A program made the translations under genes and the position numbers. Below are positions 16,631 through 43,047 of a stretch of 43,047 bases of DNA, piece after piece. Source of the DNA: Brasilonema bromeliae SPC951 (GTDB lineage: Bacteria; Cyanobacteriota; Cyanobacteriia; Cyanobacteriales; Nostocaceae); assembly GCF_012912135.1 (NCBI RefSeq), contig NZ_QMEB01000001.1:23560-66606 (forward strand), given 5' to 3'. Each line of letters opens with the position of its first letter. Position 1 is the first letter of the stretch. The notes under the pieces were generated by a model. It made no database searches, was not told the DNA's origin, and saw nothing but the letters and a program-made list of their open reading frames with translations.

Positions 16631-18594
16631 ACCCAAATTTAAGTGATTGGGAAAGTGATTGGGATGATGATTTACCCCCCGAACCAGAAGAAGCTTATCA
16701 AGACTTAGTTCGCGCACTGAAGCGGAAATCAGGATTTGGCTTGTTTTTTGTGCAATGTACACCTGCCCAATCAGACCGTTTCATTGCCAAACTTCCGCAG
16801 GATATTCCCCAGAAAAAAATTGCAGCGTTGCGCTTAGTTGAACCGATTGATAACTTGTATCAGCCGGTAGCTGAGTTTGTTAAAAACAAGCAAGTTGATA
16901 TTTTATTGATTAAAGGGTTGGAATATTCTTTATATAAGTATGAGCAAAGAACTTTTGGCGAAATTACAGAGGGGCAATTTAGTAATTTAACTCGTGTTCC
17001 TCCAATTTTAAATCATTTAAACCAGCAGCGAGAAAGGTTTAGAGATGATTTTCCATTTTGCTTTGTTTTTCTATTGCGGTCATTTTCGATTAACTATTTG
17101 ATTCACCGCGCCCCAGATTTTTTTGATTGGCGTTCAGGGGTATTTGAATTACCAACAACACCAGAAGTGGTAGAACAAGAAACATCTCGTTTGCTGCTGG
17201 AAGGGGATTCTGAAAAATATTTTAAACTCAGCCTTGAAAAAAAGATAGAGAAAGTCCTTGAAATTCAAGACCTTCTAGCAGCAAAACATCAAACAGAGAA
17301 TAGTCAGGTAATTTTACTACTTGAACTTGGAAATTTATTAGTCGCTGCTAAGGAATATGAAGCAGCCATCACATCTTACAACCAAGCTGTGAAATGTCAA
17401 CTAGACTTACATGAGGCTTGGTACAACCGGGGGATTGCGCTGGATAATTTAGAACGATACGAAGAAGCAATAGCATCCTATGACCAAGCTGTGAAATTTC
17501 AACCAGACGACCACGAAGCTTGGAACAGCCGGGGCTATGCGCTGCGGAATTTAGAACAATACGAAGAAGCAATAGCATCTTACGACCAAGCACTGAAAAT
17601 TAAATCAGACTACCACGAAGCTTGGTACAATCGGGGCTATGCGCAAGGGAATTTAGAACGATACGAAGAAGCAATAGCATCTTACAAGCAAGCTGTGAAA
17701 TTTCAACCAGACTATCACGAAGCTTGGTACAGTCTTGCTACTGCGCTGGATGATTTAGGACGATACGAAGAAGCAATAGCATCTTACGATCAAGCACTGA
17801 AAATTAAACCAGACTACCATCAGGCTTGGTACAACCTTGTGACTGCGCTGTATGATTTAGGAAGATACGAAGAAGCGATGGCTGTTGACCGTCAAGTTTG
17901 GAACAACTGGGGTATTGCGCTGCGGGATATAGAATCCCACCAAGCAGCAATAGCATCTTATCAAGCTGTGAAAATTAAACCAGACTTACATGAGGCTTGG
18001 AACAATCGGGGTGTTGTGCTGGGGAATTTAGGACGCCACCAGGAAGCAATAGTATTCTACGACCAAGCTGTGAAAAGTAAACCAGATGATCACGAAGCTT
18101 GGAACAACCGGGGTTATGCGCTGCGGAATTTAGGACGGTACGCAGAAGCAATAGCATCTTATGACCAAGCACTGAAATTTAAACCAGATAAACATGAGGC
18201 TTGGAACAACCGAGGCATTGCCCTGCTGTCTTTGGGACGCAACGAAGAAGCAATAGCATCTTACGACCAAGCACTGAAATTTAAACCAGATAAACATGAA
18301 GCTTGGTACAACCGGGGGATTGCCCTGCGGCATTTAGGACGATACACCGAAGCGATCGCATCTTACGACCAAGCACTCAAAATTAAACCTGACAAACATG
18401 AGGCTTGGTACAACAAAGCTCGTTGTTATATCCTTCAAAGTAACATTGAACAAGCAATTGAAAACCTCGAAAAAGCAATTCATCTTAATCCTGATAAATG
18501 CCAGGATTGGGCAAAGAATGATTCCGATTTTGATAGTATTCGTGAAGATGAGCGCTTTTTGGTGTTGATTCAAGGACAGCAAACAGGCGATTAG
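16627..18594 (+). CDS. Tetratricopeptide repeat protein
   Basis: About ten 34-residue TPRs (HEAWYNRGIALDNLERYEEAIASYDQAVKFQPD) after a roughly 240-aa non-TPR N-terminal region. Confidence 0.9.
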   Translation: MNPNLSDWESDWDDDLPPEPEEAYQDLVRALKRKSGFGLFFVQCTPAQSDRFIAKLPQDIPQKKIAALRLVEPIDNLYQPVAEFVKNKQVDILLIKGLEYSLYKYEQRTFGEITEGQFSNLTRVPPILNHLNQQRERFRDDFPFCFVFLLRSFSINYLIHRAPDFFDWRSGVFELPTTPEVVEQETSRLLLEGDSEKYFKLSLEKKIEKVLEIQDLLAAKHQTENSQVILLLELGNLLVAAKEYEAAITSYNQAVKCQLDLHEAWYNRGIALDNLERYEEAIASYDQAVKFQPDDHEAWNSRGYALRNLEQYEEAIASYDQALKIKSDYHEAWYNRGYAQGNLERYEEAIASYKQAVKFQPDYHEAWYSLATALDDLGRYEEAIASYDQALKIKPDYHQAWYNLVTALYDLGRYEEAMAVDRQVWNNWGIALRDIESHQAAIASYQAVKIKPDLHEAWNNRGVVLGNLGRHQEAIVFYDQAVKSKPDDHEAWNNRGYALRNLGRYAEAIASYDQALKFKPDKHEAWNNRGIALLSLGRNEEAIASYDQALKFKPDKHEAWYNRGIALRHLGRYTEAIASYDQALKIKPDKHEAWYNKARCYILQSNIEQAIENLEKAIHLNPDKCQDWAKNDSDFDSIREDERFLVLIQGQQTGD

Positions 18595-23177: not shown

Positions 23178-23228
23178 ATCATACAACTGAGCGAATAAGG
23201 CAAAAGCGCGTTGTAAGAGCGTGCATCC

Positions 23229-24398
23229 CTATCGTACTTCTCCTGTTGTCAGAGGTGTCACTGGCTGACCTGTGGGTAACCGTTCTTGAAGCTCTGCAAG
23301 TCTAATATTCGGTAGATGAGGTAACACAAGCTTGGCAAAATAGTGAGATTCCTCAATCAGGGGATAGCCAGAGAAAATAAATGCTCGAATTCCCATATCC
23401 AAGTAACGATGCAGTCGTTCAAGTATCTGAGATGGATTTCCCACGAGTGCTCCTCCACACCCAGAACGCGCTCGTCCTATTCCCATCCATAAGTTCCCCT
23501 CGATGTAGTCGTCAGAGTCAGCAACTGTTCGCAGGGTATCCTGTTTCAGGACGCCTACGGAGCGAGAATCTTGTGCGCGAGATTTCAACTGTACACCGCG
23601 AGCTGCATCGAGTTGCGATATTAAAGTTTTTGCCCATAAACGCGCCTCTTCCTCGGTTTCGCGTACAATCACATGAATGCGGAGTCCAAAATCGATACGC
23701 CGTCCATATGCAGCAGCCCTCTTTGAAAGGTCCTGCATACTTTCAAATAGACCTTCTTCAGTATCGGGCCACATCAGAAAAACATCGCAGTATTGAGCAC
23801 ACACATCGCGAGAACCTGGTGATAGACCGCCGAAGTAAAGCAGTGGTCCGCCATGTTGCTGATACGGTTTGACTGGGTAACTCGGTAAGCTGAAGCGATA
23901 AATCTCTCCTGAATGGTGTATTTTTTCTTGCGTCCACGCCTGTTGAAGAATTTGGATCACTTCTTTACACCGTTGATAGCGATATTCAGGGTCTTCAACA
24001 AGACCAGGGAGTTCAGAATTAATGATGTTTACGGTGAGCCGTCCCTGTAAAAGATGGTCTAACGTCGAGAGATGACGTGCGAGCATAGGAGGGTGGATCT
24101 CGCCTGTGCGTATTGCGGTGAGTAAACTGATTTGTTGGAGTTGGGATGCGATCGCCCCCGCAAAAGGTAACACCTCCTGACCCAACATATAGCTTGTAGG
24201 CAGTAGAATGTTCTTATAGCCCAACGCATCTGCTGTGAGCACAATATCACGGCAATGTTCGTAGTTGCTGCGCCGAGAGGGGTCAAGCTTTCCTAAACGA
24301 TCAGTGTCACCCCCGCATAGATCGGCAAACCAACCCACCTCAGATACCCTCTGATGCGTCCTAATAGTCGAAAGCCGAGGTACATCGCCTTTAAACAT
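23229..24398 (-). CDS. LLM-class flavin-dependent monooxygenase (SsuD-like)
   Basis: Luciferase-like fold motifs: GEIHPPMLARHLSTLDHLLQGRLTVNIINSE, GGPLLYFGGLSPGSRDVCAQYCDVFLMWPDTEE. Confidence 0.88.
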   Translation of the reverse strand: MFKGDVPRLSTIRTHQRVSEVGWFADLCGGDTDRLGKLDPSRRSNYEHCRDIVLTADALGYKNILLPTSYMLGQEVLPFAGAIASQLQQISLLTAIRTGEIHPPMLARHLSTLDHLLQGRLTVNIINSELPGLVEDPEYRYQRCKEVIQILQQAWTQEKIHHSGEIYRFSLPSYPVKPYQQHGGPLLYFGGLSPGSRDVCAQYCDVFLMWPDTEEGLFESMQDLSKRAAAYGRRIDFGLRIHVIVRETEEEARLWAKTLISQLDAARGVQLKSRAQDSRSVGVLKQDTLRTVADSDDYIEGNLWMGIGRARSGCGGALVGNPSQILERLHRYLDMGIRAFIFSGYPLIEESHYFAKLVLPHLPNIRLAELQERLPTGQPVTPLTTGEVR

Positions 24399-24508
24399 AT
24401 TTTTTTTCTCCTAAATAACTCTGTAAGTTGTACTCGACTTTAGTCATATTTAGATAAGACGGCTCATTGCCAGCAAAACTACAGAAAAACTAGGTAATAA
24501 TAATTTAT

Positions 24509-24589
24509 CAGTAATTATCCTGAATTATCCTGAACTTATAAAGAATAATTAAAACTGCCATGAAAACTTTTGCTAATCTGCTGATATCG
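24509..24589 (+). pseudogene. Truncated duplicate of the 5' region of the LapA-like gene at 42234-42509
   Basis: 81 bp matching the reverse complement of 42480-42560 with 3 mismatches by eye; reads MKTFANLLIS then stop. Confidence 0.85.
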
Positions 24590-24789
24590 TAGTCAACACC
24601 TAAGTCTCGTGAGTTTTAGCTATCGACCAGCTACACTCATGTGGACGTATGAAGAAGACAGGCACGGTAAGCGTAGAGAGTAGGGGGGGTCATCTACGGC
24701 TGAGACTCCCGACGAGTGTCGCTCAAGGCGCTGCTAGGTACATCTCCACGCGACTAGAGGACAATAAAATCTGAAACTTCTGTGACTAG

Positions 24790-24969
24790 CCGATTCTTTT
24801 AATCTTTGCCAGTTTTACTTGGACGGCTTTTTTGTTCGTCGAACTCACGTTGATTAACCCAAATCTCCGCATCCGCCAGATTATTAACTATCGCCGTCCA
24901 AGCGTTGGACAACCCCTACAAGAAGTGCTACTGGTGGGCTTTGGAGTTGAACAAAAAACAGTTCCTTAA
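24790..24969 (+). pseudogene. Startless 59-codon reading frame with a TM-like start; unidentified gene remnant
   Basis: PILLIFASFTWTAFLFVELTLINPNLRIRQIINYRRPSVGQPLQEVLLVGFGVEQKTVP*. Confidence 0.3.
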
Positions 24970-25308
24970 AATTCTCAGAAACTTGAAAAATGAATTAAGA
25001 AACGTTAATACTTCCTAAGCGCGATTGCCCAAAGGGCAGACGCCAGAGGCGTATCGCCTGCTTGCTGACTAAAGTCCTGGATGCCACAATAGTCCATGAA
25101 AATACAAAATCTCCTCCGTTATGACTATGGCGGCTTTCAGCAACAGCGATTGACTGCATTTTGATGATGTCTCAGTGATGTCAAACTGATGTAACTAATC
25201 TACACAATAAAACTTAACGATTCTTAATCTTTTTGGTTACAACGTTATATGAAGATTGAGGGTGTGCAAGGTGTAAAACCTTGGTATAAAGTTAAAAAAC
25301 TCACACGA

Positions 25309-25377
25309 TTGAGAGTTTTTCTAGCTCCTAGAGTCGATAATAACTCTCAACTCTAAATTTGTTGCTTGAAAAAGCAA
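25309..25377 (+). promoter_or_regulatory. cpeC 5' leader hairpins
   Basis: ttgagagtt(25309-25317)/aactctcaa(25342-25350), and ttgctt-gaaa-aagcaa (25362-25377), upstream of cpeC RBS. Confidence 0.5.
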
Positions 25378-25444
25378 TTCTTAATTTACTTAATCTTTTG
25401 AGATAATCACTTCTCATTATGTTGTTCACCAGGAGATTTGCTTA

Positions 25445-26293
25445 ATGCCTTTTGGACCAGCATCACGTTTAGGAGTTAGCCTATTTGAGGAAACCCCTCC
25501 ACTTGAGTGGGTTCCAGGTCTGTCTGAAGAAGAAGCACAAACCCTCATTAAAGCCGTCTACAGGCAAGTGCTGGGTAATGCGTACGTCATGGAAAGTGAG
25601 CGGCTGACAGTGCCAGAATCACAATTCAAACGTGGTGAACTCAGTGTTCGTGAGTTCGTTCGGGCTGTAGCAAAGTCCGATCTCTACTTCTCCCGTTTTG
25701 GTGACACTCCCCGCTATCGTTTTATCGAGCTAAACTTCCGGCATTTGCTCGGTCGTGCCCCCAACAGTTACGATGAAATGAAGGCTCACAGCGCCATCCT
25801 GGATGCGGGTGATTTTGAAGCTGAAATCGACTCCTACCTTGACAGTGACGAATATCAGAACACTTTCGGTGAAAACCTCGTGCCTTACATCAGAGGCTAC
25901 AAGACCGAAGCATTGAGCCACATGATAGGCTTTACCCATACCTTCCAGTTGGTGCGGGGTGCTTCCACTAGCTCTCTCAAGGCAGATTTGGCAGGTAAGT
26001 CTCCGAAACTCAACTCACTAGTCATTAATGCAACTCCAACCCCTGTGGTTCCACCTGGAACCACTTTCCGCAACCCGCCAGTCAGTTCACGTGTTCGTCT
26101 TGGTGTGGGAGCAAGCGAAGAAGGTAAAGTTTACCGCATCGAAGTCACTGGCTACCGAGCAAATGCGGTTAACCGAGTTTCCAAGTTCCGCCGCAGCAAT
26201 CAGGTTTACTTGGTACCGTTCGATAAGCTTTCGGAAGAGTATCAACGGATTCACAGACAGGGCGGTGTCATCGCTAGTATCACGCCTGTATAG
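25445..26293 (+). CDS. cpeC: Phycoerythrin-associated rod linker polypeptide CpeC
   Basis: PBS linker domain ([36 protein letters not shown]) plus C-terminal CpcD-like domain; first in cpeCDESTR order. Confidence 0.9.
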   Translation: MPFGPASRLGVSLFEETPPLEWVPGLSEEEAQTLIKAVYRQVLGNAYVMESERLTVPESQFKRGELSVREFVRAVAKSDLYFSRFGDTPRYRFIELNFRHLLGRAPNSYDEMKAHSAILDAGDFEAEIDSYLDSDEYQNTFGENLVPYIRGYKTEALSHMIGFTHTFQLVRGASTSSLKADLAGKSPKLNSLVINATPTPVVPPGTTFRNPPVSSRVRLGVGASEEGKVYRIEVTGYRANAVNRVSKFRRSNQVYLVPFDKLSEEYQRIHRQGGVIASITPV

Positions 26294-26367
26294 CAAAAAT
26301 GGCGATCAGCGATTAGCAGTTTGTTGATAACACCAGACTTAGAGAATAGGTAAGCCCGTTGAGCCAC

Positions 26368-26492
26368 GGCGATGCTCCTTTGGAGGAGCCCTATGCCCCA
26401 AATCGAAGACTTGGGGAGAGAGATTCTTTGCCGAATCCCTCTAGGCAAACAAGGGCGATTGCCCAAAGGGCAGACGCTGCTAGGCGTATCGC
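26368..26492 (+). repeat. Inverted repeat copy A, cpeC-cpeD intergenic region
   Basis: ggcgatgctcctttgg...ccaaatcgaagacttggggagagagattctttgcc...caaacaagggcgattgcccaaagggcagacgctgctaggcgtatcgc; aligns to the reverse complement of 27599-27722. Confidence 0.8.
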
Positions 26493-26761
26493 TCATGGGG
26501 AAAAGACGCGCTTGTACACTCGACACCCCCCTTGTTCGAGAGTTAGGGGCGCTTTCCCAAACCCCAGAATAAGGGAGCGACTTGTTCCCAAAGCTATCCT
26601 AAGCAGTTGAAACTGGAAGCCCTAACCTCTACGCAGCAATCATCGAGTGCGTACCGTAAGGCATCGCAAAGTAGGTTGGGGTACTTCAGTTGCTAATCGG
26701 TGAGTATAAAGTGAGTTTTGAATTCTGAGCAAAACAAGTGTTAGGAGTATTCGCGTAAATT

Positions 26762-27517
26762 ATGGCAACAATAGCACCAATAGAACTCTGGTCCACCCGC
26801 GACCTGGAGGATGTACAAGCAGTCATTCGGGCAGTCTACAAGCAGGTTTTAGGCAATCCCCACGTGATGGAAAGTGAGCGCTTGGTGACTGCAGAATCAC
26901 AATTGAAGGATAGCACTATCTCTGTACGGGACTTTGTCCGGGCAGTTGGTAAGTCGGATTTCTACCGCTCACGTTATTTTGAAGCGTGTGCTCCCTATCG
27001 TTTTATAGAATTGAATTTCAAGCACTTCCTCGGTCGTCCACCACAGTCACAAGCGGAGATTTCCGAGCACATCGTTCGTTGTGTGGAAAAGGGATACGAC
27101 GCTGAAATCGACTCCTACATCGATAGCGAAGAGTACCAGTCAGCATTTGGCGAAAATGTTGTACCCTACAATCGCGGGGTGAAAACGGAAGTTGGGCGCA
27201 GCCAGGTTACCTATAACCGTACGTTTGCTCTGGATCGTGGTCCTTCTCAAATTAGTAGCGCTGTTAAATCCTCTCAACTGGTTTATGCAGTCGCTACCAA
27301 CAGCCCGAACAAGATAAAACCAGCAGATGTTAACCTCGGTGGTTCGGGTGAAGCGAACAAAAAGAAATTCAAGATTTTAGTGCAGGGTTCCAAGTTTGAT
27401 AGCCCTCGTCGGGTCAGCACCACCGAATACATTGTTCCTGGTGACCGGATGACCCCTCAAATTCAGCGGATTAACCGCACCGGCGCTAAGATTGTCAGCA
27501 TCACTGAGATTGTCTAG
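26762..27517 (+). CDS. cpeD: Phycoerythrin-associated rod linker polypeptide CpeD
   Basis: [93 protein letters not shown]. Confidence 0.9.
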   Translation: MATIAPIELWSTRDLEDVQAVIRAVYKQVLGNPHVMESERLVTAESQLKDSTISVRDFVRAVGKSDFYRSRYFEACAPYRFIELNFKHFLGRPPQSQAEISEHIVRCVEKGYDAEIDSYIDSEEYQSAFGENVVPYNRGVKTEVGRSQVTYNRTFALDRGPSQISSAVKSSQLVYAVATNSPNKIKPADVNLGGSGEANKKKFKILVQGSKFDSPRRVSTTEYIVPGDRMTPQIQRINRTGAKIVSITEIV

Positions 27518-27598
27518 GCATCAACCTTCAAGAATTGCACAGGCATGTTCTTTGCAATTCTTGAGAGCTTTGCTCGTGCTGTGAGATGAGTATTTGCA

Positions 27599-27722
27599 GG
27601 CGATACGCCTAGCAGCGTCTGCCCAAAGGGCAGACGCCCTTGTTTGCCCAAAACAATTCTTTGCCCAATCTCCCTCCCCAAATTTTCGATTTGAGGAGAG
27701 GGTACGTCAAGGAAGCATCGCC
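27599..27722 (-). repeat. Inverted repeat copy B, cpeD-cpeE intergenic region
   Basis: Reverse complement aligns with 26368-26492. Confidence 0.8.
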
Positions 27723-28056
27723 CAAAAGTGCTCAGACAAAACAGTCTTAAAACGCCATCCTCGCACAAAAATCTGCCCAAGGGGCGATGCTCCTTTGGAA
27801 CTGTCTTAATAAAAGTGATCAAAAAAACCTTGAACCTCTGGTTTAATGAGTTGAAATTTCGATAAGATTATGCTAGCAACTATGTGCAATGACCAATTGA
27901 GCTGTTCCATTGGATGTCACTCATACTCATCATTCGCCATAGGAATTGAAAAATAGCTTTGAACCTATTGTCTAATCAGCTTACCGATTAAATCACGAGA
28001 ATGATTTCTCAACTTTATCAAACTGAACAATAAACACTTCATTAGGAGAAATTCCC

Positions 28057-28821
28057 ATGGCACTTTGGATTGCAGATGCAGAGTCTGTTGAACTACGCCC
28101 CAACACTTCAGAGGATGATCTACAGACGATCATTCGGGCAGTGTATCGGCAAGTGCTAGGCAATGCTCATGTTATGGAAAGTCAGCGCCTTACCAGTGCA
28201 GAATCCTTGCTGCGCAATGGTGATATTACCGTTCGAGGATTTGTGAGAGCCATTGCCCAATCCGAACTATACCGCTCGTTGTTTTTTGATACTTCATCCT
28301 CCTACCGTTTCATTGAATTGAACTTCAAGCATCTGTTAGGACGCGCTCCTGTTGATCAGACTGAGATTTCTAGACATGTTCTCATTTACAATGAGCAGGG
28401 CTACGAAGCGGAGATTAACTCCTACATTGACAGTGATGAGTATATCCAAAGTTTTGGCGAAAACGTAGTTCCTTCCTCACGCGGCAATCGTACTCAAACT
28501 GGCATTAAGAATGTCGGCTTTAATCGCACCTTCGCTCTAGATCGAGGATTTGCTGCCTATGATGCTGCTGGCAAAAACGCGAAATTGATTAGTGATGTCG
28601 GAGGTAACCTCCCAACAAAAATCAAATTCCCAGCAACTGGCTCTGGAGCTTACAGTAATACTGGCAAGCGTTTCCGGATTACTGTTACCAAGGGTAGTTC
28701 TAATCCCCGTATGAATCAGGGCAAAGTCACTTTTAAAGTTGGCTATAACCAAATGTCGCAGAAGATTCAGAACATCCAAAAGACTGGCGGCAAGATTCTC
28801 AGCATTACTGAAGTTGCTTAG
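28057..28821 (+). CDS. cpeE: Phycoerythrin-associated rod linker polypeptide CpeE
   Basis: [64 protein letters not shown]-terminal CpcD-like domain. Confidence 0.88.
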
Positions 28822-29136
28822 ACCATAATACAGTGATCAGTGAACAGTGAGACAGAGTGCTGCCTTTGGGTTTCCCTTATGCTGGCTCTCCCGTTGGGTT
28901 ATCACCTTGCTCACTGATAACTGTTCGCTGCGTCTTTGGTAATTACTCCCTTCGATGCTCTAAAATTACCTCTGCCAAAGCGTTGCGTATTTTCTCTGCG
29001 CTCTGGTGCGTTTTTAAAATTGGTAATGTTTTAGGTAGAAAGGGAGTAGTTACAGAACGTTTCAAAATCACCGGCGAAGTGGCAAACAAATATCCAAAAA
29101 GTTAGTGGTTGTTCTGTTGCTCTTAAAATTCATTGC

Positions 29137-29688
29137 ATGAAATCGATGGATATTACGCAGTTTGTTGAGCTTTCAATTGGGCGTTGGCGATCGCAACGTA
29201 GCGCCCACCATTTAGCATTTAGCCACTTTGAAGCTGTGCAATCGGTGATTGATATTATTGCACTCTCACCTGACGATCCGGATGTCATGACTCTGTGTAA
29301 GTCATACAATATTGACCAAAGCCAGATTGTGTCTCCCTTTGGGATGTCTTGGGAGGGACAGTCGGATTGGGATGAAGACGCACAGATGAAAGGGAGTAGT
29401 ATACTCGTACCAGTTCCCGATCCTAATGTCCCTAATCGGGGCAAATTACTTAGAGATCAGGGATACGCTGAAACCATCGCAGCGGCTGGTGACTATCACC
29501 TGACAGAAGATGGGACATTTGTCCTGCTGACGACATATGATCGAGCAGCGGCTGAAGAGAAAATTTGGTTTGCCAATCCAAACTTGCGATTTCGCGTGTC
29601 ACTCATCAAAACGAGTGGTGGAAGTGGAGTGGTGACTGCATCGTTTGCCTCAGAAATTCGTTCGTCGAGTAGTTCAGTAAACAGTTAA
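29137..29688 (+). CDS. cpeS: Phycobiliprotein lyase CpeS
   Basis: MDITQFVELSIGRWRSQRSAHHLAFSHFEAVQS..GTFVLLTTYDRAAAEEKIWFANPNLRFRVS. Confidence 0.93.
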   Translation: MKSMDITQFVELSIGRWRSQRSAHHLAFSHFEAVQSVIDIIALSPDDPDVMTLCKSYNIDQSQIVSPFGMSWEGQSDWDEDAQMKGSSILVPVPDPNVPNRGKLLRDQGYAETIAAAGDYHLTEDGTFVLLTTYDRAAAEEKIWFANPNLRFRVSLIKTSGGSGVVTASFASEIRSSSSSVNS

Positions 29689-29756
29689 CAGTAAACAGTG
29701 ATCAACTGACAACTGATAATTGATAACTGATAATTGATAACTGATAACTGATAGAT
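29677..29756. repeat. Short tandemly repeated repetitive (STRR) sequence between cpeS and cpeT
   Basis: cagtaaacagttaacagtaaacagtgatcaactgacaactgataattgataactgataattgataactgataactgatag. Confidence 0.85.
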
Positions 29757-29757
29757 C

Positions 29758-30363
29758 ATGACTTCAGCAAAAGCCAATGACTTAACGACGCTGGCTCAGT
29801 GGATGGCAGGCGATTTCAGCAATTACAAGCAATCCTACCACAAGCCTCAGCAATTTGCTCATATCCATATCTTTTTTCGTCCCTTACCCTTTGAGTTTTT
29901 CAATGCGATTGGTTTTTACTCAGAACAGGTTTACGATCACGACTTATGGAGTCCCTATCGTCAGGGAGTGCATCGATTAATTGACGAGGGAGAGCAAATT
30001 TATATAGAAAATTACAGTCTGAACGATCCATTGCTCTATGCAGGAGCAGCACGGGAATTAAGCATTCTCAGAACTATTACACCAGATTGTATCGAACGAC
30101 GATATCACTGCTCTATGATTTTCAAACGACAGGGCGAGATGTTTCAAGGCAGTGTCGAGCCAGGGAACAAATGCTTAATCGAGCGAAAGGGCTGTTTAAC
30201 GTATCTCATCAGTGATGTGGAGCTGACAGCAACAACGTGGGTTAGCCTGGATAAAGGTATGGATGTTAATACCCATCAACAAGTTTGGGGATCCACGTTT
30301 GGGGCGTTGGAGTTTGAAAAGCGGGAGAGTTTTGCACATGAACTTCCCGAGTATCGTCTTTGA
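29758..30363 (+). CDS. cpeT: Phycobiliprotein lyase CpeT
   Basis: LTTLAQWMAGDFSNYKQSYHKPQQFAHIHIFFRPLPFEFF..GFYSEQVYDHDLWSPYRQGVHRL. Confidence 0.95.
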   Translation: MTSAKANDLTTLAQWMAGDFSNYKQSYHKPQQFAHIHIFFRPLPFEFFNAIGFYSEQVYDHDLWSPYRQGVHRLIDEGEQIYIENYSLNDPLLYAGAARELSILRTITPDCIERRYHCSMIFKRQGEMFQGSVEPGNKCLIERKGCLTYLISDVELTATTWVSLDKGMDVNTHQQVWGSTFGALEFEKRESFAHELPEYRL

Positions 30364-30375
30364 AGCAACAGTTTT

Positions 30376-30726
30376 ATGAACGCCTTAGGTGAGCAAACGG
30401 AAGCTGGGGTAAAAATAGGGATGTTACCACCGGAAGCTGAAAAAAAAATGCAATGCTGGATCCGGAGCCGACATCTGATCTGTTCCGGAAATTTTTTTGT
30501 TTTTGAATCAGTGGATTACAGTGCAGTTGAACGATTTTCAGAGTGTATTGCAGCACTGGGAGGGGCGTTATTATCCATTGAACCCATTGGCAAAATCTGG
30601 ATGGGCGATCATCGTCAGGTGATTCTTTATCGGGCGAAGGCAAGTTTACATACGCCTCATCATACCTTAAAACAATACTGGCTAAAATACGGTGGTTTTC
30701 GCACAAGGTTTGATGAGCGTGTTTAG
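30376..30726 (+). CDS. cpeR: Phycoerythrin operon activator CpeR
   Basis: KKMQCWIRSRHLICSGNFFVFESVDYSAVERFSECIAALGGALLSIEPIGKIWMGDHRQVILYRAKASLHTPHH; position after cpeT. Confidence 0.9.
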   Translation: MNALGEQTEAGVKIGMLPPEAEKKMQCWIRSRHLICSGNFFVFESVDYSAVERFSECIAALGGALLSIEPIGKIWMGDHRQVILYRAKASLHTPHHTLKQYWLKYGGFRTRFDERV

Positions 30727-30733
30727 TAGAATA

Positions 30734-31069
30734 ATGGATAAAAGAATTCAAGATCGGGAAATTATCAAAAAATTAATTACTGATTACGTCAATGAAGCTT
30801 TAACCAGAAATGACGTGGAAAAATAAATAATTTTTGATACAGAACACGACCATTATCAATTAGTGAATGTTGGTTGGCGAAATCGCCATCGGGTTTACGG
30901 TTGTGTGCTGCATTTCGATATTAAGAATGATAAGATTTGGCTTCAATATAATGGTACAGAAATTGATTTTGCAGAGGAATTAATCAAACAGGGTGTACCA
31001 AAAGAGGATGTTGTTCTTGGGTTTCATTCGCCTTTTATGCGACAGTTTACAGAATACGCAGTTGGTTAA
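30734..31069 (+). pseudogene. xisI-like gene copy interrupted by TAA
   Basis: Near copy of 34222-34557; gaaaaataaataattttt replaces gaaagacaaatgattttt (E R Q M -> E K stop I). Confidence 0.9.
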
Positions 31070-31094
31070 GCAAGACAATCCATACAAACAATTC

Positions 31095-32060
31095 ATGAGC
31101 GATGTCAATGAACGTACCGATTTTGATAGTCCCTGGAAAGAAGTTTTAGAAGCTTACTTTCCTCAAGCAATGCAATTCTTCTTTCCCGAAACTGTTGCAT
31201 TGATTGATTGGGAACGTCCCTACGAGTTTCTGGATAAAGAATTTCAACAAATTGCCCGCGAAGCCGAACAAGGCAAACGATACGCTGATAAATTAGTTAA
31301 AGTTTGGCGTACCCAAGGACAAGAGCTTTGGTTATTGGTGCATGTCGAAATTCAAGCCCAACCGGAAGAAAACTTTGCAGAGCGGATGTTTACATACAGC
31401 TTTCGGATTTTTGACCGCTTCCACCAGCCTGCTGTTAGTTTAGCAATTTTGTGTGACGCTAACCGTCAATGGCGACCAAATAGCTACAGTTATAGTTATC
31501 CCGATACTCGGTTGAACTTTGAATTTGGAACTGTCAAGCTTTTGGACTACGAAAGCCGTTGGACAGAACTCGAAGTAAGTGAGAATCCTTTTGCAACCGT
31601 GGTGATGGCGCATTTGAAAACACAACAGACACGCCAACAACCCCAGGAACGCAAAACTTGGAAATTTAGCCTGATTCGCCGACTCTATGATTTAGGCTTG
31701 CAAGAGCAGGATATCCGTAACCTATATCGATTTATTGATTGGGTTATGATATTGCCAAAGGCGTTGGAAGCAGAGTTTTGGGAACAGTTCAAACAATTTG
31801 AACAGGAGCGTACTATGAGATACGTTACTACAGGTGAGCGCATTGGCTATGAGCGCGGTAAACAGGAAGGTAAACAGGAACAGACACAGACGCTCATTCT
31901 ACGACTATTACAAAGACGGGTGGGAGAATTATCATTAGAAGTGCGATCGCACATCCAATCTCTCACTCTTTCTCAGCTAGAAGAACTTGGTGAAGCCTTG
32001 TTAGATTTTACCGCGATGGAGGATTTGCTCAATTGGTTGCAAGCAAATCAAAGCGAGTAG
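31095..32060 (+). CDS. Rpn-family/DUF4351 putative nuclease-transposase-like protein
   Basis: MSDVNERTDFDSPWKEVLEAYFPQAMQFFFP..DWERPYEFLDKEFQQIAREAEQGKRYADKLVKVW..ELWLLVHVEIQAQ; ATG 31095 within ORF 30993-32060. Confidence 0.85.
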   Translation: MSDVNERTDFDSPWKEVLEAYFPQAMQFFFPETVALIDWERPYEFLDKEFQQIAREAEQGKRYADKLVKVWRTQGQELWLLVHVEIQAQPEENFAERMFTYSFRIFDRFHQPAVSLAILCDANRQWRPNSYSYSYPDTRLNFEFGTVKLLDYESRWTELEVSENPFATVVMAHLKTQQTRQQPQERKTWKFSLIRRLYDLGLQEQDIRNLYRFIDWVMILPKALEAEFWEQFKQFEQERTMRYVTTGERIGYERGKQEGKQEQTQTLILRLLQRRVGELSLEVRSHIQSLTLSQLEELGEALLDFTAMEDLLNWLQANQSE

Positions 32061-32180
32061 CACCTTACCATATAGGCTTCGCCACATCTTGAATCACAAA
32101 GAATGTTGTCAGGAAACATTTTTCCACGCCAGCGTATTAAGCTCAGTATATATATTGATCTCAAACCGCAAGCTGGAACA

Positions 32181-33008
32181 ATGATAATTTGGACACCCAA
32201 TCAACCACTGCAAAACGGACGCTTTATCATTCAAAAAGTCCTTGGTAGCGGTGGCTTTGGTATTACCTACAGTATCCTCGAACAGCGTACGGGTAAATTA
32301 TTTGTCCTGAAAACCCTCAACCACATTCAGCAAATAAGAAAAGACTTCTCGGAACGACAGGTAAAATTTGTCCAGGAGATGACGCGGTTAGCACGATGCA
32401 CTCACCCCCATATTGTGAAATTTGAGGATGTCATCCAAGAAGATGGACTGTGGGGGATGCTGATGGAATATATTGATGGCGTGGATTTAAAGACTTATGT
32501 TGATGAGGGTGGGCAATTGTCAGAGGATGAAGCCTTACGCTACATTAACCAAATTGGGCAAGCTTTAGAATATGTCCATCAACAAGGATTCTTACATCGG
32601 GATATCAAGCCTCATAATATTATCTTGCGCCGTGGCAAACAAGAAGCAGTATTGATTGATTTTGGTCTTGCCCGTCAGTTTAGCACTGGTGAAAAATCCA
32701 TCAGCATGACGAGTGATGGAACCGAGGGTTATGCACCCATTGAACAGTACAGAAGAAAGGGCAATTTTGGTGCGTATACTGATGTTTATGCTTTAGCCGC
32801 AACGTTGTATTTTTTGCTGACAGCTGATGCGCTCAAAGCTGCTGACGAAGAAATAGTTTCAGATCTTCGTCGCAAGTATGAGGATGAAGAATTACCACCG
32901 CCAAAGCAATTTAACCCCGAGATTAGCCATAGAGTAAACGAGGCGATTCTCAAAGGGATGGCATTGGAACCACAAGATAGAGTGCAGACGGTGCGGAAGT
33001 GGTTATAA
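32181..33008 (+). pseudogene. Ser/Thr protein kinase domain, N-terminal part of a split kinase-GUN4 gene
   Basis: GSGGFGITY, HRDIKPHNII, DFGLA; ends VQTVRKWL-TAA directly upstream of and in frame with the GUN4 ORF. Confidence 0.75.
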
Positions 33009-33662
33009 TTGGTGATGCCCAGAAAAGTAAATCCTCCAATTCCTCAAGTATCAATCTCCAATCCACAACCGAAAATACAAAATCAACAATCAATTTATAT
33101 TGCAACCCCAGTAGTAAGTTCAAAACAGTCTTCTCAAGGAATTTTGAAGTGGCTAGAAGGAATTATACCCAAAAATTCAAAATCAGATGATGAGATTAGG
33201 TTAATCACAGCGAAGATGGACTACACCCAACTGCGTGACTTACTCACAGCAGGAAATTGGAAACAAGCTGATGAAGAAACAAGGCGAGTTATGCTAGCGG
33301 TAGCGAGGAGAGAAAAAGAAGGTTGGCTTAATGGTGAAGATATTGATCACTTTCCCTGTGAAGACCTCCGCACAATTGACCAATTGTGGGTAAAATACAG
33401 CAATGGGCGCTTTGGCTTCTCTGTGCAAAAGGGCATTTATCAAAGTCTGGGTGGAACCAGAGAATACGACACGAAGATTTGGGAAGCTTTTGCCGACGCA
33501 GTCGGTTGGAGGTTGGTGTTTGGGGAGGAAGAGTGGTGGAGTGGCGATATTTTTTATGACTACAGGATCACACCCAAGGGACACCTCCCCGTTGGGGGTC
33601 TGTGGGGGTGGTTAGCACGGCACCCTGTTCTTTGTCTTCTTCTCTCACGTCGAGACTTGTAG
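33009..33662 (+). pseudogene. GUN4 domain, C-terminal part of the split kinase-GUN4 gene
   Basis: LRDLLTAGNWKQADEETRRVMLAVARREKEGWLNGEDIDHFPCEDLRTIDQLWVKYSNGRFGFSVQKGIYQSLGG. Confidence 0.75.
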
Positions 33663-33787
33663 AATTTAACATATAAGGCTTACAGATTTTTATTAAGATT
33701 TATATACGAGTCACTTTGGGTCGAAGTTTTGAGGGTTCTGGCTTTGGGGTGTTATTGATATCATATAGATAATGATTTTGCACAGCG

Positions 33788-34234
33788 TTGCAGGTCAATT
33801 TTCTACTAAATTTCACTATGCCTGCAAAAGATATCTTTCACAACGCAGTCAAACATGCACTTGAAAAAGATGGATGGTTGATTACAGACGATCCAATATA
33901 TTTGGATTTCGGCGGAGTTGAAATTTATATTGATTTAGGTGCAGAAAAAATAATTGCAGCAGAGAGAGAAGGAGAAAAAATTGCCGTTGAAGTCAAAAGT
34001 TTTATTGGAGGTTCAGCGATTTCTCAGTTTCACACAGCTTTGGGACAATTTATTAACTATCGAACTGCCTTGAATCAAGAGCAACCAGAACGAGAATTAT
34101 TTTTAGCTGTTCCCAACATCACTTATGAAACATTTTTTAAACTTGAGCTAGTTCAAATTGTTATCCAATCTCAAAACCTCAAGCTGCTGATTTACGAACC
34201 AGAACAGGAAGTGATTGAACGATGGATAAGATAG
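33788..34234 (+). CDS. xisH: XisH-like protein (fdxN element excision controlling factor family)
   Basis: MPAKDIFHNAVKHALEKDGWLITDDPIYLDFGGVEIYIDLGAEKIIAAEREGEKIAVEVKSFIGGSAISQFHTALGQFINYR. Confidence 0.93.
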   Translation: MQVNFLLNFTMPAKDIFHNAVKHALEKDGWLITDDPIYLDFGGVEIYIDLGAEKIIAAEREGEKIAVEVKSFIGGSAISQFHTALGQFINYRTALNQEQPERELFLAVPNITYETFFKLELVQIVIQSQNLKLLIYEPEQEVIERWIR

Positions 34235-34557
34235 TTCAATATCGGGAAATTATCAAACGATTGATTACTGATTACGTTAATGAAGCTTCAACCAGAGATG
34301 ACGTAGAAAGACAAATGATTTTTGATACGGAACATCACCATTATCAATTAGTGAATGTTGGTTGGCGAAATCGCCATCGAGTGTACGGTTGTGTGCTGCA
34401 TTTCGATATTAAGAATGATAAGATTTGGCTTCAATATAATGGTACAGAAATTGATTTTGCAGAGGAATTAATCAAACAGGGTGTACCAAAAGAGGATGTT
34501 GTTCTTGGGTTTCATTCGCCTTTTATGCGACAGTTTACAGAATACGCAGTTGGTTAA
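34222..34557 (+). CDS. xisI: XisI-like protein
   Basis: MDKIVQYREIIKRLITDYVNEASTRDDVERQMIFDTEHHHYQLVNVGWRNRHRVYGCVLHFDIKNDKIWLQYNGTE; overlaps xisH. Confidence 0.93.
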   Translation: MDKIVQYREIIKRLITDYVNEASTRDDVERQMIFDTEHHHYQLVNVGWRNRHRVYGCVLHFDIKNDKIWLQYNGTEIDFAEELIKQGVPKEDVVLGFHSPFMRQFTEYAVG

Positions 34558-34579
34558 GCAAGACACATCATATATCAAA

Positions 34580-34648
34580 ATGGAGAAGCCAGAGATTTAC
34601 TTTAAGAGTGCAAGGAAGTTTAAGCAGGCGTTGTTAGATGTGTTGTAA
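34580..34648 (+). pseudogene. 3'-end fragment of a Ser/Thr kinase gene
   Basis: MEKPEIYFKSARKFKQALLDVL* versus EKPEIYFKSATEFKQALLDVL* at 37555-37619. Confidence 0.7.
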
Positions 34649-34751
34649 CGAGTTTAAATTCCCTCACAATAGTGTGTTCCATAATTTGAACAGGAGCGCA
34701 ATATGAGCTACATTATTCCAAACTACATTCCAATGAGCGAGGTTAGTAGTA

Positions 34752-34988
34752 ATGTTGAAGTCAGTTGAAGGAGTTTTTAAAAACGGTGCGATTGAGTTAT
34801 CTGAAGTACCATCCGATGTAGTAGAAAGCCGCGTCATCGTTACTTTTTTAGAAGCAAAGCCAGTTCAATTCACTCCACAAATAATGTACTTCGGTATGTT
34901 CGCTGATTCCAATCAACAATCAACCGAAGAAGATTTCAAAATAGCAGAATTTCATGGTGATTTTGGCGATGAATTAGACTGGTCTTAG
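34752..34988 (+). CDS. Antitoxin-like small protein
   Basis: 78-aa ORF just upstream of PIN toxin; MLKSVEGVFKNGAIELSEVPSDVVESRVIVTFLE. Confidence 0.7.
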   Translation: MLKSVEGVFKNGAIELSEVPSDVVESRVIVTFLEAKPVQFTPQIMYFGMFADSNQQSTEEDFKIAEFHGDFGDELDWS

Positions 34989-34994
34989 ATAAAA

Positions 34995-35393
34995 ATGAAA
35001 TATGTTATTGATACTCATGCTCTGATTTGGTTCCTAGAAGGTAATCCCCGCTTGGGAAGTAACGCGAAAACAATTCTTTCCAATCCTGAGAGCCAATTAA
35101 TTATACCTGCTACAGCTTTAGCTGAGGCTGTTTGGATTGTAGAACGTGGACGAACATCGATTTCTTCAGCAATTGCTTTACTTTCAGCAGTCAATGCGGA
35201 CACTCGTATTGTAGTATATCCATTAGACACAAACGTCATTCAACAAACTATCAATTTATCTGCTATTGCAGAAATGCACGACCGACAAATTGTTGCAACT
35301 GCGATAGTTTTGGTCAATCAAGGAGAAACTGTTGTTTTGTTAACCTGTGACCAAAATATTACCGCATCAGGATTGGTAACTATTATTTGGTAA
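34995..35393 (+). CDS. PIN-domain toxin (VapC family)
   Basis: MKYVIDTHALIWFLEGNPRLG..IPATALAEAVWIVERGR..MHDRQIVATA. Confidence 0.88.
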   Translation: MKYVIDTHALIWFLEGNPRLGSNAKTILSNPESQLIIPATALAEAVWIVERGRTSISSAIALLSAVNADTRIVVYPLDTNVIQQTINLSAIAEMHDRQIVATAIVLVNQGETVVLLTCDQNITASGLVTIIW

Positions 35394-35559
35394 CTTCAAA
35401 TAATGATTTTTTCAATTATTCTTGATTTGCTTCAGACGAACTATTACCACCTTCTTTTTGAAACTCTTCTATAACTGACTTAATTTCCTCTGCTTCAACA
35501 TCTGCTTGTTCACTTTTGGAGTAGATTAGCAGGAGGATAATGCTTGTAGGTGATTCAAG

Positions 35560-35844
35560 CTAATAGATCAGGCGATAACCACCACTTTTACCTTTTTGGA
35601 TATCACTGTTACGAACTCGTACCTTGAAAACAGTGTTTCCTGTTCCAGATATTTGATCGCCAACAAAGTCTCCTGCTTGTAGTTGTGCAATTATCGGCTG
35701 AATATCAGATCGAATGTGGCGATACTTTTTAGATAGGGTGCGTAGTCGGCGCTGGAATTCATCTGTAAAATTAACTTGAACTGAGGGTGGTTCACTCTGC
35801 ATCAATTCCATCCCACAGTTCTGAAACAGGTTTAGTTTTTCCAA
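35560..35844 (-). CDS. RelE/HigB-like mRNA interferase toxin
   Basis: VNFTDEFQRRLRTLSKKYRHIRSDIQPIIAQLQAGD..GNTVFKVRVRNSDIQKGKSGGYRLIY. Confidence 0.78.
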   Translation of the reverse strand: MEKLNLFQNCGMELMQSEPPSVQVNFTDEFQRRLRTLSKKYRHIRSDIQPIIAQLQAGDFVGDQISGTGNTVFKVRVRNSDIQKGKSGGYRLIY

Positions 35845-36046
35845 CTTTTGCTTCTTGCAATGAAGTGCGAAGACTGTTTAACACAGATTCTTTTGGTTCA
35901 TCATCTTCATCCATCTCATCTTCCACAAATAGCACAATCACTTTAACGCGGCTATGCTTTTGAACTGTCAGCGGTTCATCCAAACACAGTGTACCGTTTT
36001 CGTCAACGCTTCCCATGACTTCTTGTGCTTTCATTTTTCCTCCCAA
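35792..36046 (-). CDS. Antitoxin partner of the RelE-like toxin
   Basis: 84-aa ORF overlapping the toxin start; GSVDENGTLCLDEPLTVQKHSRVKVIVLF. Confidence 0.72.
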   Translation of the reverse strand: MGGKMKAQEVMGSVDENGTLCLDEPLTVQKHSRVKVIVLFVEDEMDEDDEPKESVLNSLRTSLQEAKVGKTKPVSELWDGIDAE

Positions 36047-36184
36047 AGTCTGTCAGCTTATCTTCTTATAATATTTTGCACCAATCTCAAGAAAGTTATT
36101 ATTACTGTATATCGAGTCTAGGATGGAGCTAAGAATGACTATAATAAAAAATAAAAACCGTAAAAATACATATAAAAATTACCA

Positions 36185-36544
36185 ATGCCTGCCAAAGTCA
36201 CCCTCACAATTACTCAAGGGAAATCACCAGGACGGCAATATACTTTCGACTCTCGCACGACCTGTATAATTGGCAGAGCAAAAGACTGGAACCCGCAACT
36301 ACCAGATGATGATGATCATCTTACCATTTCCCGCTATCACTGCTTATTAGATATCAACCCGCCAGATATTCGCGTGCGGGATTTTGGTAGTAGAAATGGA
36401 ACTTACGTAAATGGTAAAAAAATTGGACAACGCCAATCAAAGCAAACTCCAGAAGAAGCTGCAAAGTTGGAATTAACAGAGTATGATTTGCAAGATGGAG
36501 ATGAAATTAAACTGGGTAATACGGTGTTTGTCGTTGGAGTTTAA
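36185..36544 (+). pseudogene. FHA domain, N-terminal part of a decayed FHA-Ser/Thr kinase gene
   Basis: CIIGRAKDWNPQLPDDDDHLTISRYHCLLDINPPDIRVRDFGSRNGTYVNGKKIG; stop TAA 36542-36544 is in frame with the kinase that follows. Confidence 0.7.
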
Positions 36545-37619
36545 GTTGAATTAGAATCACTTAAAATTCCTCCTTTCATCCCAGGTACAGTTAATATTCA
36601 TCATGTCAACCAACGCCCAACACAAGCACCATTCTTCTTAGAATTGATTAAACGCTTGTTGGGTTTAGCAGAGAAAGGTGACGAAAATCTCATAGCAATT
36701 CGTGGTTATAGCATTATCCAACTATTAGGAAAAGGTGGTTGTGGCGAAGTTTATTTAGCGCAGCATAATCAAACCAACAATTTTGTCGCCCTGAAAGTTA
36801 TGTTACCTGCAGTTGCTGCAAATGACAGGGCAATACAAATGTTTCTCCGGGAGACAGAAAATACGAAAGCGTTGCGACATCCTGATGTCGTGAAATTGCT
36901 TGATTATGGTTACTCCGAGAGCATTTTCTTTTTCACAATGGAGTATTGTGAAGGTGGTACTGTTACTGACTTAATGCAGCGACAGGGAGGAAAGTTATCA
37001 ATAGATATTGCTCTCCCAATTACTCTCCAAGTTTTAAACGGTTTAGAATACACCCACAACGCAGAAATTCCTAATGTCAAATTAGGTAATAGTGGATTTG
37101 GTAAAGGTAGGGGTTTGGTTCACCGCGATCTCAAACCAAGTAATATTTTTCTGGGCAATGTTGATGGTAAACTCACAGTAAAAATCGGAGACTACGGTTT
37201 ATCAAAGGCGTTTGATTTGGCAGGTTTAAGCGGTGAGACCAGCGCTGCGGGAGGGTTTCCCGACAGCCAGGCGACTGGCGAACCCGGAGGGTCAAACTTT
37301 AACAGGTTATAAAGCAGGTACTCCCGTTTTGATGTGTCGCCAGCAACTCTTAAATTATAAGCGTGTTCAACCAGAAGTCGATGTGTGGGCTGCTGCTGCT
37401 TGTCTCTACTATATGCTGACAGGATTTTTTCCTCGTAATTTCACTGACAGAGACCTCTTGAAAGCAGTATTAGAAAATGACTGCGTACCTATTAGCCAGC
37501 GTGATGCAAGTATACCTCAACGACTGGCAGAGGTGATTGATTTAGCTTTGGTGGAGAAGCCAGAAATTTACTTCAAGAGTGCGACGGAGTTCAAGCAGGC
37601 GTTGTTGGATGTGTTGTGA
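36545..37619 (+). pseudogene. Ser/Thr kinase domain, frameshifted by a 58-bp repeat insertion
   Basis: GKGGCGEVYLAQH, VHRDLKPSNIFLG; ORFs 36644-37312 and 37233-37619 rejoin (DLAGLSG-QTLTGYKAGTP) when 37235-37292 is removed. Confidence 0.88.
37235..37292 (+). repeat. 58-bp dispersed repeat inserted in kinase gene
   Basis: gagaccagcgctgcgggagggtttcccgacagccaggcgactggcgaacccggagggt; related copy on the - strand at about 42125-42182. Confidence 0.9.
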
Positions 37620-37626
37620 TATTAAC

Positions 37627-37682
37627 CACTGTTCACTGTTCACTGTTCACTGTTCACTGTTCACTGTTCACTGTTCACTGTT
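37627..37682. repeat. Heptamer STRR (CACTGTT)x8
   Basis: 56 bp of perfect 7-bp period; overlaps cpeZ stop codon. Confidence 0.97.
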
Positions 37683-38292
37683 GTCGCCTAGCATTCAAAT
37701 TAATAACTTGCTCCAACCGAGATAAAGCACTCACAGCCGACTCCCGTACATAAGAATCAGCAGACTCATCATTCGTCAAACCTTTCAAGACTTCTATTGC
37801 TCGATCATCTCCCGATGCTGCGAGTGCGTTGACGACTGACACCGCCACCGCTACATTATCTGTCGTTTTCAGCGCCTCATCCAAGATATCAAAAGCAGGA
37901 GAACCAACCTCACCCAACGCCATCACAGCTGCAATATGAACCACTGGATTGGGGTCATTGATGGCAGTTTGCAATCCTTGCAAACCTTCAGTTGGAAAGG
38001 GAACATCTGGATAGTTTACCGCAATTTGTGCCAGCGCCTTTGCACAGCTACCCCGGACAGTCACATTGTTGCTGTTGAGTAATGATTTTACCAGAGATGG
38101 TACGCTATCTACACCAATGACACCTAAAGTCTTGACTGCTGCTCGACGAAGGGTGACATCTTCATCATTGAGAACACTCATCAGACGAGGAATCGTATTT
38201 TCATCACGATTTTCAGCCAACTCGAACATCGCCCGTTCTCGCAGGTGGGGGTTGGGGTGTTTCAGTTGTTCAAATAGCGAATCTACTGTCAT
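37675..38292 (-). CDS. cpeZ: CpeZ, HEAT-repeat phycoerythrin lyase/chaperone-like protein
   Basis: HEAT repeats; LFEQLKHPNPHLRERAMFELAENRDENTIPRLMSVLNDEDVTLRRAAVKTLGVIG; overlaps cpeY end. Confidence 0.9.
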   Translation of the reverse strand: MTVDSLFEQLKHPNPHLRERAMFELAENRDENTIPRLMSVLNDEDVTLRRAAVKTLGVIGVDSVPSLVKSLLNSNNVTVRGSCAKALAQIAVNYPDVPFPTEGLQGLQTAINDPNPVVHIAAVMALGEVGSPAFDILDEALKTTDNVAVAVSVVNALAASGDDRAIEVLKGLTNDESADSYVRESAVSALSRLEQVINLNARRQQ

Positions 38293-39581
38293 GGGTTTAT
38301 TATGTTGCTGGATGCAGGAGTGTGAGTTGCTTTGGCTCGAATCAACCAGTTTTGGTCATTTGCTGCAATTGCGTGAGCGTTGGTATCGCCGAGTTTCTCC
38401 AGAGCCATTAATGCAGCATACTTCAGATCCCAGATTTTTGTCTCCAGAACGGCTTTCAAAAGTGGAATAGCACTCGTATCGCCGAATTCACCTAGAGCGA
38501 TCGCCGCCCCCGCCCGAGATTTCTGAAACTGAGGTTCGCGATTGTTCAAAGCTTCAACAAGCAAATCGTAACCCGGAGCATACTTGAGCCAACCCAAGAG
38601 TTTCATCACATGGTAATGTGCTCCGTAGTCATTGTAAGCTTCAGCGGCATAGGTTGCCATCAGGGCTTCACCAGCACTATCGGGATACGCCTCTAATATA
38701 GTCTTTGTCGCCAGATAACAACGCCCAAAATCAGTATCATAAAGTTCTCTAATCAAAAGTTCCAGTGTTGGAGTCTGCTCGTAAGCATGTACCAACTTCA
38801 AATCTCTTGGATGGTCAAAAATGACTTGCTCTAGTGAGGGTTGAATATCTGTAAAGGCGATCGCTCCCGCTGGAATACCAGCTTCTGCCAACAAACGAAT
38901 CCCGCGCAGACGAAACACAAGTGATACCGGACACTGGGCAATAGTCGGAATAGCAGCGTAATACCGAGCATCGATCAAATCTTGGATACACAACCGACGC
39001 GCATACACATTCGGGTGTTGGAGCAAGGCAAGCACTTTCTCAATGGGCGAGTAGTCCCCAGTGAAGCGACAAACGGCAGAGATAGCTGCACTTGCTGTGG
39101 GTTTGTCGGTAGCATCCACAAATTTACGGATGCGTTCTACTGCTGGCGGATAATCTAACTTTGCCAGGGTATGGATAATCACTCGATAGGTTTGTCCTGG
39201 CTTTTCCAGCAATTGAGCAATTTCTTCGAGGATATCTGAGTCTTGGGTGCCAATTTCACCAATTGCCCATACCGCATTTTCCACGGTATAGCAGTCTTCA
39301 TCTGCCAAGCAGGCGCGAATGGCTGACAAAGCAACCTTGGCTTGCAATTTCCCCAGCGACTCTACTGATTTCCGTCGCACGATGCGGTTATCCAGGGAGG
39401 GGTCGGTGTTTTGCACTGCCCGAATCAGCGCGTTGATTGAGCGCTCTGTCGCGAAGTTTACCAACTCGGAAGCAGCCACGTAGCGAGAGTCATCCTCCGC
39501 CAACTGGTCTAGAGGCGTATCCAAGAGGCTAATAGCTTGTTCTTCGGTTAATCCAAAAAGATTGGAAAAGCGCTTATCCAT
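38289..39581 (-). CDS. cpeY: CpeY, HEAT-repeat phycoerythrobilin lyase
   Basis: MDKRFSNLFGLTEEQAISLLDTPLDQLAEDDSRYVAASELVNFATERSINALIRAVQNTDPSLDNRIVRRKSVESLGKL; downstream of cpeBA. Confidence 0.92.
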   Translation of the reverse strand: MDKRFSNLFGLTEEQAISLLDTPLDQLAEDDSRYVAASELVNFATERSINALIRAVQNTDPSLDNRIVRRKSVESLGKLQAKVALSAIRACLADEDCYTVENAVWAIGEIGTQDSDILEEIAQLLEKPGQTYRVIIHTLAKLDYPPAVERIRKFVDATDKPTASAAISAVCRFTGDYSPIEKVLALLQHPNVYARRLCIQDLIDARYYAAIPTIAQCPVSLVFRLRGIRLLAEAGIPAGAIAFTDIQPSLEQVIFDHPRDLKLVHAYEQTPTLELLIRELYDTDFGRCYLATKTILEAYPDSAGEALMATYAAEAYNDYGAHYHVMKLLGWLKYAPGYDLLVEALNNREPQFQKSRAGAAIALGEFGDTSAIPLLKAVLETKIWDLKYAALMALEKLGDTNAHAIAANDQNWLIRAKATHTPASSNIINP

Positions 39582-39591
39582 GAGTTATTAG

Positions 39592-39626
39592 TTAACAGTT
39601 AACAGTTAACAGTTAACAGTTATCAA
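39592..39626. repeat. Heptamer STRR (GTTAACA)x4 plus variant, upstream of cpeY
   Basis: gttaacagttaacagttaacagttaacagttatca. Confidence 0.93.
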
Positions 39627-39735
39627 TTTGAAGAAGAATTCAGAATACAGAATTCAGTATTCAGAAGGAAGAAAGAAAGAATTTAGTTTTCCGACTTCCG
39701 ACTCCTTCACTGATAACTGATGACTGATAACTGAT

Positions 39736-39811
39736 AAAAAAGATGAACCTGGGGATTCTCAAACCAATACTTAACCTTTCTGGGCAAAGCACTAGATTAA
39801 GAATCCCCAGG
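39736..39811 (-). terminator. Rho-independent terminator/attenuator between cpeA and cpeY
   Basis: cctggggattct (39748-39759)/agaatccccagg (39800-39811); on the - strand followed by ttcatctttttt. Confidence 0.78.
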
Positions 39812-39853
39812 ACTGACGAACCTAAGTCCAATCAGCTATGAGAGATTATGAAC

Positions 39854-40387
<534 letters not shown>

Positions 40388-40421
40388 TCAATTCAGTTCG
40401 TTAAATTGCTTTGGCTATTGC

Positions 40422-40991
<570 letters not shown>

Positions 40992-41306
40992 TTAAAAATT
41001 CTTACCTTGTTTTGGACAAGACATCTCTGAAGATAGAAGAAGAGGTATGCGAGCGTCTCAGTTATGAGAAATAAAGTAATAATCTGTAACAATTGCTATA
41101 TTTTGAAGTCAAGTTTAAGCCAAGGAAAGTTGGCTCTTAGCCCTTTGATAGTTATCAGTTCCATCCCTTGGCTGACGTATTGTCTGAAAAGTTTAGGCAA
41201 GATATATTTTGTGATTTTGTAGAGGCGTAAGCGCCTTCATGCAGGATGCTTAGTCCTGATCTGGTTTGGTTATGGACTTTAGACTAAAAGCCCATGAACA
41301 TTTGAA

Positions 41307-42182: not shown

Positions 42183-42233
42183 AAATCAAACCAGATTCCC
42201 ATAGGTCATCTTAGACAGGAAACGAAGTAGTTC

Positions 42234-43030: not shown

Positions 43031-43047
43031 ATTCATCGTCAGAACTT

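Follow-up and report, generated by a model that had tools for sequence, protein, structure and literature searches.

A short piece of a LapA-like gene lies, in opposite orientations, on both sides of the phycoerythrin (PE) genes of Brasilonema bromeliae SPC951. How did the 5' end of one gene come to bracket a pigment locus? We addressed this question in a stretch of 43,047 nucleotides (hereafter the window) and by comparing it with related genomes, of which the closest is Scytonema tolypothrichoides VB-61278 (G001; contig C9, NZ_JXCA02000030.1, 482,348 bases).

The repeat pair and the genes that it encloses

A repeat search of the window identified inverted arms at 24506-24589 (+) and 42480-42563 (-), which are 84 nt long, 95 per cent complementary (80 of 84 sites identical, that is, 4 mismatches) and 17,890 nt apart. 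An initial annotation of the window had described an 81-bp inverted duplication with about three mismatches, and this description is borne out: the core at 24509-24589 has 3 mismatches in 81, and the fourth comes from the three outer bases of the 84 nt. The pair is the strongest inverted repeat within the window, whose best ungapped inverted match scores 69 (+1/-3) versus 13-17 in ten order-1 Markov resamplings with the same dinucleotide make-up. Rather than the many unrelated genomic copies that the initial annotation had named as contrary evidence, the whole assembly (6.26 Mb, 447 contigs) holds two copies in all (E = 2e-32 for the second match). The pair and its immediate surroundings comprise the following features.

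23229-24398, reverse strand: LLM-class flavin monooxygenase (Bac_luciferase, PF00296, 2.7e-45), ancestral divergent neighbor of LapA and unmoved left anchor
24408-24508, forward strand: native intergenic and upstream region of LapA, kept at the left copy only and collinear with all six congeners
24509-24589, forward strand: left copy, a truncated remnant at the original site, with 51 bp of upstream DNA, the ATG and 10 LapA codons in all, then TAG
24845-41880: inverted PE block, with the cpeC, cpeD and cpeE linker genes, cpeS, cpeT, cpeR, an extra 5.7-kb segment, cpeZ, cpeY, cpeA, cpeB and nblA
42234-42509, reverse strand: intact LapA-domain gene (PF06305) of 91 amino acids, now at the end of the inverted block away from the monooxygenase, with 96 per cent amino-acid identity to its VB-61278 counterpart
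42480-42560, reverse strand: right copy of the 81-bp duplication, differing from VB-61278 wherever the two copies differ
42564-42639: new upstream DNA of the relocated LapA gene, for which no relative was found in the genus

The nearest NCBIfam profile to the monooxygenase is alkanesulfonate monooxygenase, with a score under the cut-off of that profile. The reading frame of the left copy gives MKTFANLLIS and then stops at TAG, and the open reading frame (ORF) of the right copy matches PF06305 at 29.5 bits (curated cut-off 28), in agreement with the earlier description of a left copy ending at TAG and an intact LapA-like gene on the right. Of its native upstream DNA, the relocated gene keeps about 50 bp (a leader of ~51 bp); promoter scans of the repeat gave scores near the chance level. 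Relative to VB-61278, it has eight synonymous and four replacement codon differences with the frame intact, a pattern that would fit continued use, with counts too few for a test.

The pair encloses 17.9 kb, and the gene content assigned to this interval by the initial annotation stands in large part: profile matches were obtained for three phycobilisome linkers, CpeS, CpeT, CpeY, CpeA, CpeB and NblA, but cpeR (ORF 30376-30726) has no specific profile match and cpeZ (ORF 37675-38292) matches HEAT repeats only, so that these two names come from the earlier reading of the sequence. An Rfam search of the window returned no matches. One part of the block, recognized from an alignment gap and from profiles, is missing at the matching place in VB-61278.

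31935-37667: extra segment of 5.7 kb between cpeR and cpeZ, encoding a serine/threonine kinase, a GUN4-like protein, XisH, XisI, a PIN-domain protein, an FHA protein and a second kinase

Integrase and invertase profiles matched none of the ORFs tested, and XisH and XisI match no recombinase family. Several further repeats occur in the window. The interval 30729-31028 duplicates 34217-34516, in the XisI region, at 93 per cent. Dispersed repeats of 28-30 bp of the GGTGAGACCAGCGCTGCGGGAGGGTTTCCC type are found in inverted orientation at 37232-37296 (near cpeZ) and 42120-42182 (3' of LapA). Units of 102 nt (34 codons) are repeated in tandem over 17281-18465; one congener (G003) has fewer units, and the extent of the array differs.

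Ancestral and derived arrangements

We searched for the LapA protein and the flavin monooxygenase in 40 genomes (that of SPC951 and 39 relatives). In all six congeners examined, LapA occurs once, is intact and lies roughly 150-270 bp from the monooxygenase gene, in divergent orientation, and the monooxygenase orthologs adjoining it are 91-96 per cent identical. No second copy of the 81-bp segment was found in the six congeners, as opposed to two in SPC951. Because every congener retains the monooxygenase-LapA arrangement, the order in the window is derived. In a multiple alignment with the six congeners, collinearity of the left copy with all of them begins at the monooxygenase start, spans the intergenic region and reaches LapA codon 10, whereas the right copy joins the alignment only from the repeat inward; LapA therefore originally stood at the left copy, and the right copy belongs to the moved gene. 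Additionally, a 10-bp tandem duplication in the LapA leader is present in both copies and in VB-61278 and absent from the other congeners, which fits a copying event after that branch.

In VB-61278, the order is monooxygenase, LapA, nblA, cpeBA, cpeYZ, cpeR, cpeT, cpeS and cpeEDC. On contig C9, window positions 23226-24410 align to 246614-245430 and 24408-24593 to 245329-245143, both on the minus strand, and positions 24845-41880 align to 235023-244723 and 42108-42560 to 244776-245228, both on the plus strand. The alignment thus switches strand where the repeat lies, and the two copies have a single counterpart in VB-61278 (C9, ~245143-245228), which indicates that the block flipped in place with LapA attached. 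The LapA-nblA-cpeBA adjacency has the same order in both genomes, so LapA moved together with the block. At all four sites where the arms differ, the left copy has the VB-61278 base and the right copy does not; the changes therefore occurred on the right copy, and the copies diverged after the event. Each of the four replaces a base by its complement (T>A, A>T, C>G and G>C), a pattern that is probably due to chance.

The proposal in the initial annotation that the region had been inserted or inverted as a unit can accordingly be narrowed: the strand switch relative to VB-61278 upholds inversion, but the remnant of the resident LapA gene at the left does not agree with insertion. Relatives with the left fragment and no cpe genes had been named there as counter-evidence. 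What the relatives carry at this site is the whole LapA gene, with cpe genes not beside it, and this speaks against insertion, not against inversion. At the level of genome comparison, the inversion relative to the relatives, the single-copy ancestral state of the segment and the flank kept by each copy are established.

The two neighbors had themselves been brought together earlier. VB-61278 is the only relative with the PE block beside LapA; in the other five congeners, the PE genes are located elsewhere. Specifically, cpeC of G003 lies at position 1,416,596 of contig C1 and LapA at 2,065,976, about 650 kb apart, and in G006 the PE block has the same internal order and does not adjoin LapA. 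The genes that follow LapA in G002-G004 occupy a different scaffold in VB-61278, and in SPC951 they lie at the beginning of contig C61. Beyond its PE block, VB-61278 still has genes in common with the PE locus of G006 (222256-225685), and this common stretch sits on contig C245 of SPC951. From these gene orders, it is probable that PE and LapA were joined in the common ancestor of SPC951 and VB-61278, through a break immediately 3' of LapA. As VB-61278 also has the PE-LapA adjacency, the PE genes were already beside LapA before the inversion, and the inversion, which broke at the LapA 5' end, probably came after the joining.

Origin of the inverted pair

We consider it very likely that a single derived inversion, in place, of a ~18-kb segment made up of the PE genes and the LapA body left the 81-bp inverted pair behind as its scar. 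The break at the LapA end would have been staggered, or copied during repair, so that the ~81 bp between two nicks (the 51-bp leader, the ATG and the first codons) would come to lie at either end of the inverted DNA. The original promoter-side flank would remain with the left copy, which would lose the gene body, and the right copy would keep the gene body, leaving LapA intact with its short native leader. That the native upstream DNA is found at the left and the gene body at the right is what a duplicated breakpoint segment predicts. Physically, such an event would involve staggered nicks followed by end joining, or else a replicative repair process to the same effect.

The main rival reverses the order of events: a copy of a short LapA piece would first have arisen upstream of cpeC, and the two inverted copies would then have recombined homologously and flipped the block. 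This route yields exactly the same end product, and the longest identical run between the arms exceeds 40 bp, a length of identity that suffices for occasional RecA exchange. However, with no second copy in any of the six congeners, it needs two events where one suffices (closer strains outside the sample could possibly carry one), and the arms have diverged by 5 per cent with no sign of ongoing exchange. We therefore regard the repeat-first route as unlikely.

A misjoined contig whose true order is that of VB-61278 is a good deal less probable still. The assembly is a draft of 447 contigs that is 89.8 per cent complete, and the contig ends 487 bp past the right copy, inside a repeat. Nevertheless, the copies differ at 4 of 84 sites and have different outer neighbors, both junctions lie within one contig, and the estimated contamination is 0.91 per cent.

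We also considered whether the 81-bp arms still recombine, such that flipping of the 18-kb PE block continues in some cells. If true, the locus would be a slow, reversible pigment switch in which LapA alternates between its native and its new upstream region and each flip turns the PE operons around and changes their context. Given the divergence of the arms and the lack of any recombinase found nearby, a reversible flip lacks support, and we judge it highly improbable.

A PE block inserted at LapA, with the repeat as an insertion-associated duplication, has next to no probability: PE adjoins LapA only in SPC951 and VB-61278 (as against ~650 kb in G003), but target-site duplications are direct repeats, those found here are inverted and made of resident gene sequence, the LapA body itself is inside the block, and VB-61278 has the adjacency without the repeat, so that its gene order and the orientation of the repeats rule this reading out.

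The staggered-break inversion, the preferred reading, leaves the DNA outside the two copies to be described.

24590-24761: junction filler, of which the opening TAGT (4 nt) may still belong to the LapA alignment
24762-24851, forward strand: low-copy dispersed repeat fragment ending in the palindromic motif GTTCGTCGAACTCACGTT, 91 per cent identical to two places in G004
42640-43047: transposon debris at the contig end, in three parts (42640-42740, 42746-42957 and 42993-43047)

The rest of the filler (24594-24761) has no convincing relative among the 24 genomes searched. In the debris, 42640-42740 is a low-copy repeat with the palindrome and 42746-42957 is the 3' remnant of a transposase gene. 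The last 55 bases (42993-43047) resemble the TnpB C-terminus and right end of an IS200/IS605-like element of the TnpB type, and copies of this element at the ends of many SPC951 contigs explain the contig break. A rare 24-bp palindromic motif, GTTCGTCGAACTC, occurs just beyond the repeat at both junctions (24828-24851 and 42640-42663) in inverted orientation, and each copy edges a different low-copy repeat fragment. A flip mediated by insertion sequences (IS) was considered and rejected: the transposon remnants lie ~77-240 bp from the repeat and differ beyond the 24-bp motif, which is rare. A contribution of the transposon remnants at the distal breakpoint is possible, and given the orphan filler and the transposon debris at the junctions, the rearrangement may have included a second, transposon-related step.

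Beyond cpeC, VB-61278 has a gene for a ~1900-amino-acid protein and a psbA-like gene (C9, 226664-234574). The part beyond psbA maps to contig C245 of SPC951, which stops just before psbA. The VB-61278 stretch adjoining cpeC was not found in the SPC951 assembly. With orphan DNA at both outer junctions and debris from there to the contig end, the distal breakpoint could not be traced.

Comparison with known inversions

The mechanism is an ordinary one of a known type, not a new mechanism. DNA duplication associated with inversion is a bacterial inversion class of Furuta et al. (2011, PNAS 108:1501), as presented in later papers (PMC3120642, PMC4671568 and PMC8963470); one of these also applies it to Thermus tengchongensis, in which an inversion breakpoint lies inside the first bases of a gene (PMC8963470). 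Three features of such inversions are found together at the PE locus: a strand flip, a formerly single-copy segment and flanks split between the copies. As in the bacterial cases described in those papers, a once single-copy segment is now inverted at both ends, and a breakpoint in or at a gene start can give one truncated and one intact copy. Unlike in those cases, the duplicated piece here has a length of just 81 bp, the organism is a heterocystous cyanobacterium, PE genes lie in the inverted segment, and the distal breakpoint is masked by transposon debris.

For filamentous cyanobacteria, the locus provides a well-polarized example of a breakpoint-duplicating inversion, for which the ancestral order, the derived order and both copies are available, and it illustrates how a gene can survive a break within its own start. 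It also indicates that the PE locus of this genus moves as gene blocks, having been relocated once and then inverted, with a breakpoint at LapA both times.

Near-identical inverted ends are also seen in inversions produced when inverted repeats or IS copies recombine homologously, and IS remnants are present near the right end here; in contrast to those inversions, however, the repeat is not an IS but a piece of a single-copy gene that is unpaired in relatives. In Drosophila, the accepted sign that an inversion arose through staggered breaks is that once single-copy DNA lies duplicated, in inverted orientation, at its two ends (PMC3355041). The PE locus resembles the Drosophila inversions 2h and 2q, in which single-copy DNA became flanking inverted duplications and one copy is degenerating, but the Drosophila duplications are kilobases long, compared to 81 bp here, and repair by NHEJ is the usual proposal for them (PMC3355041).
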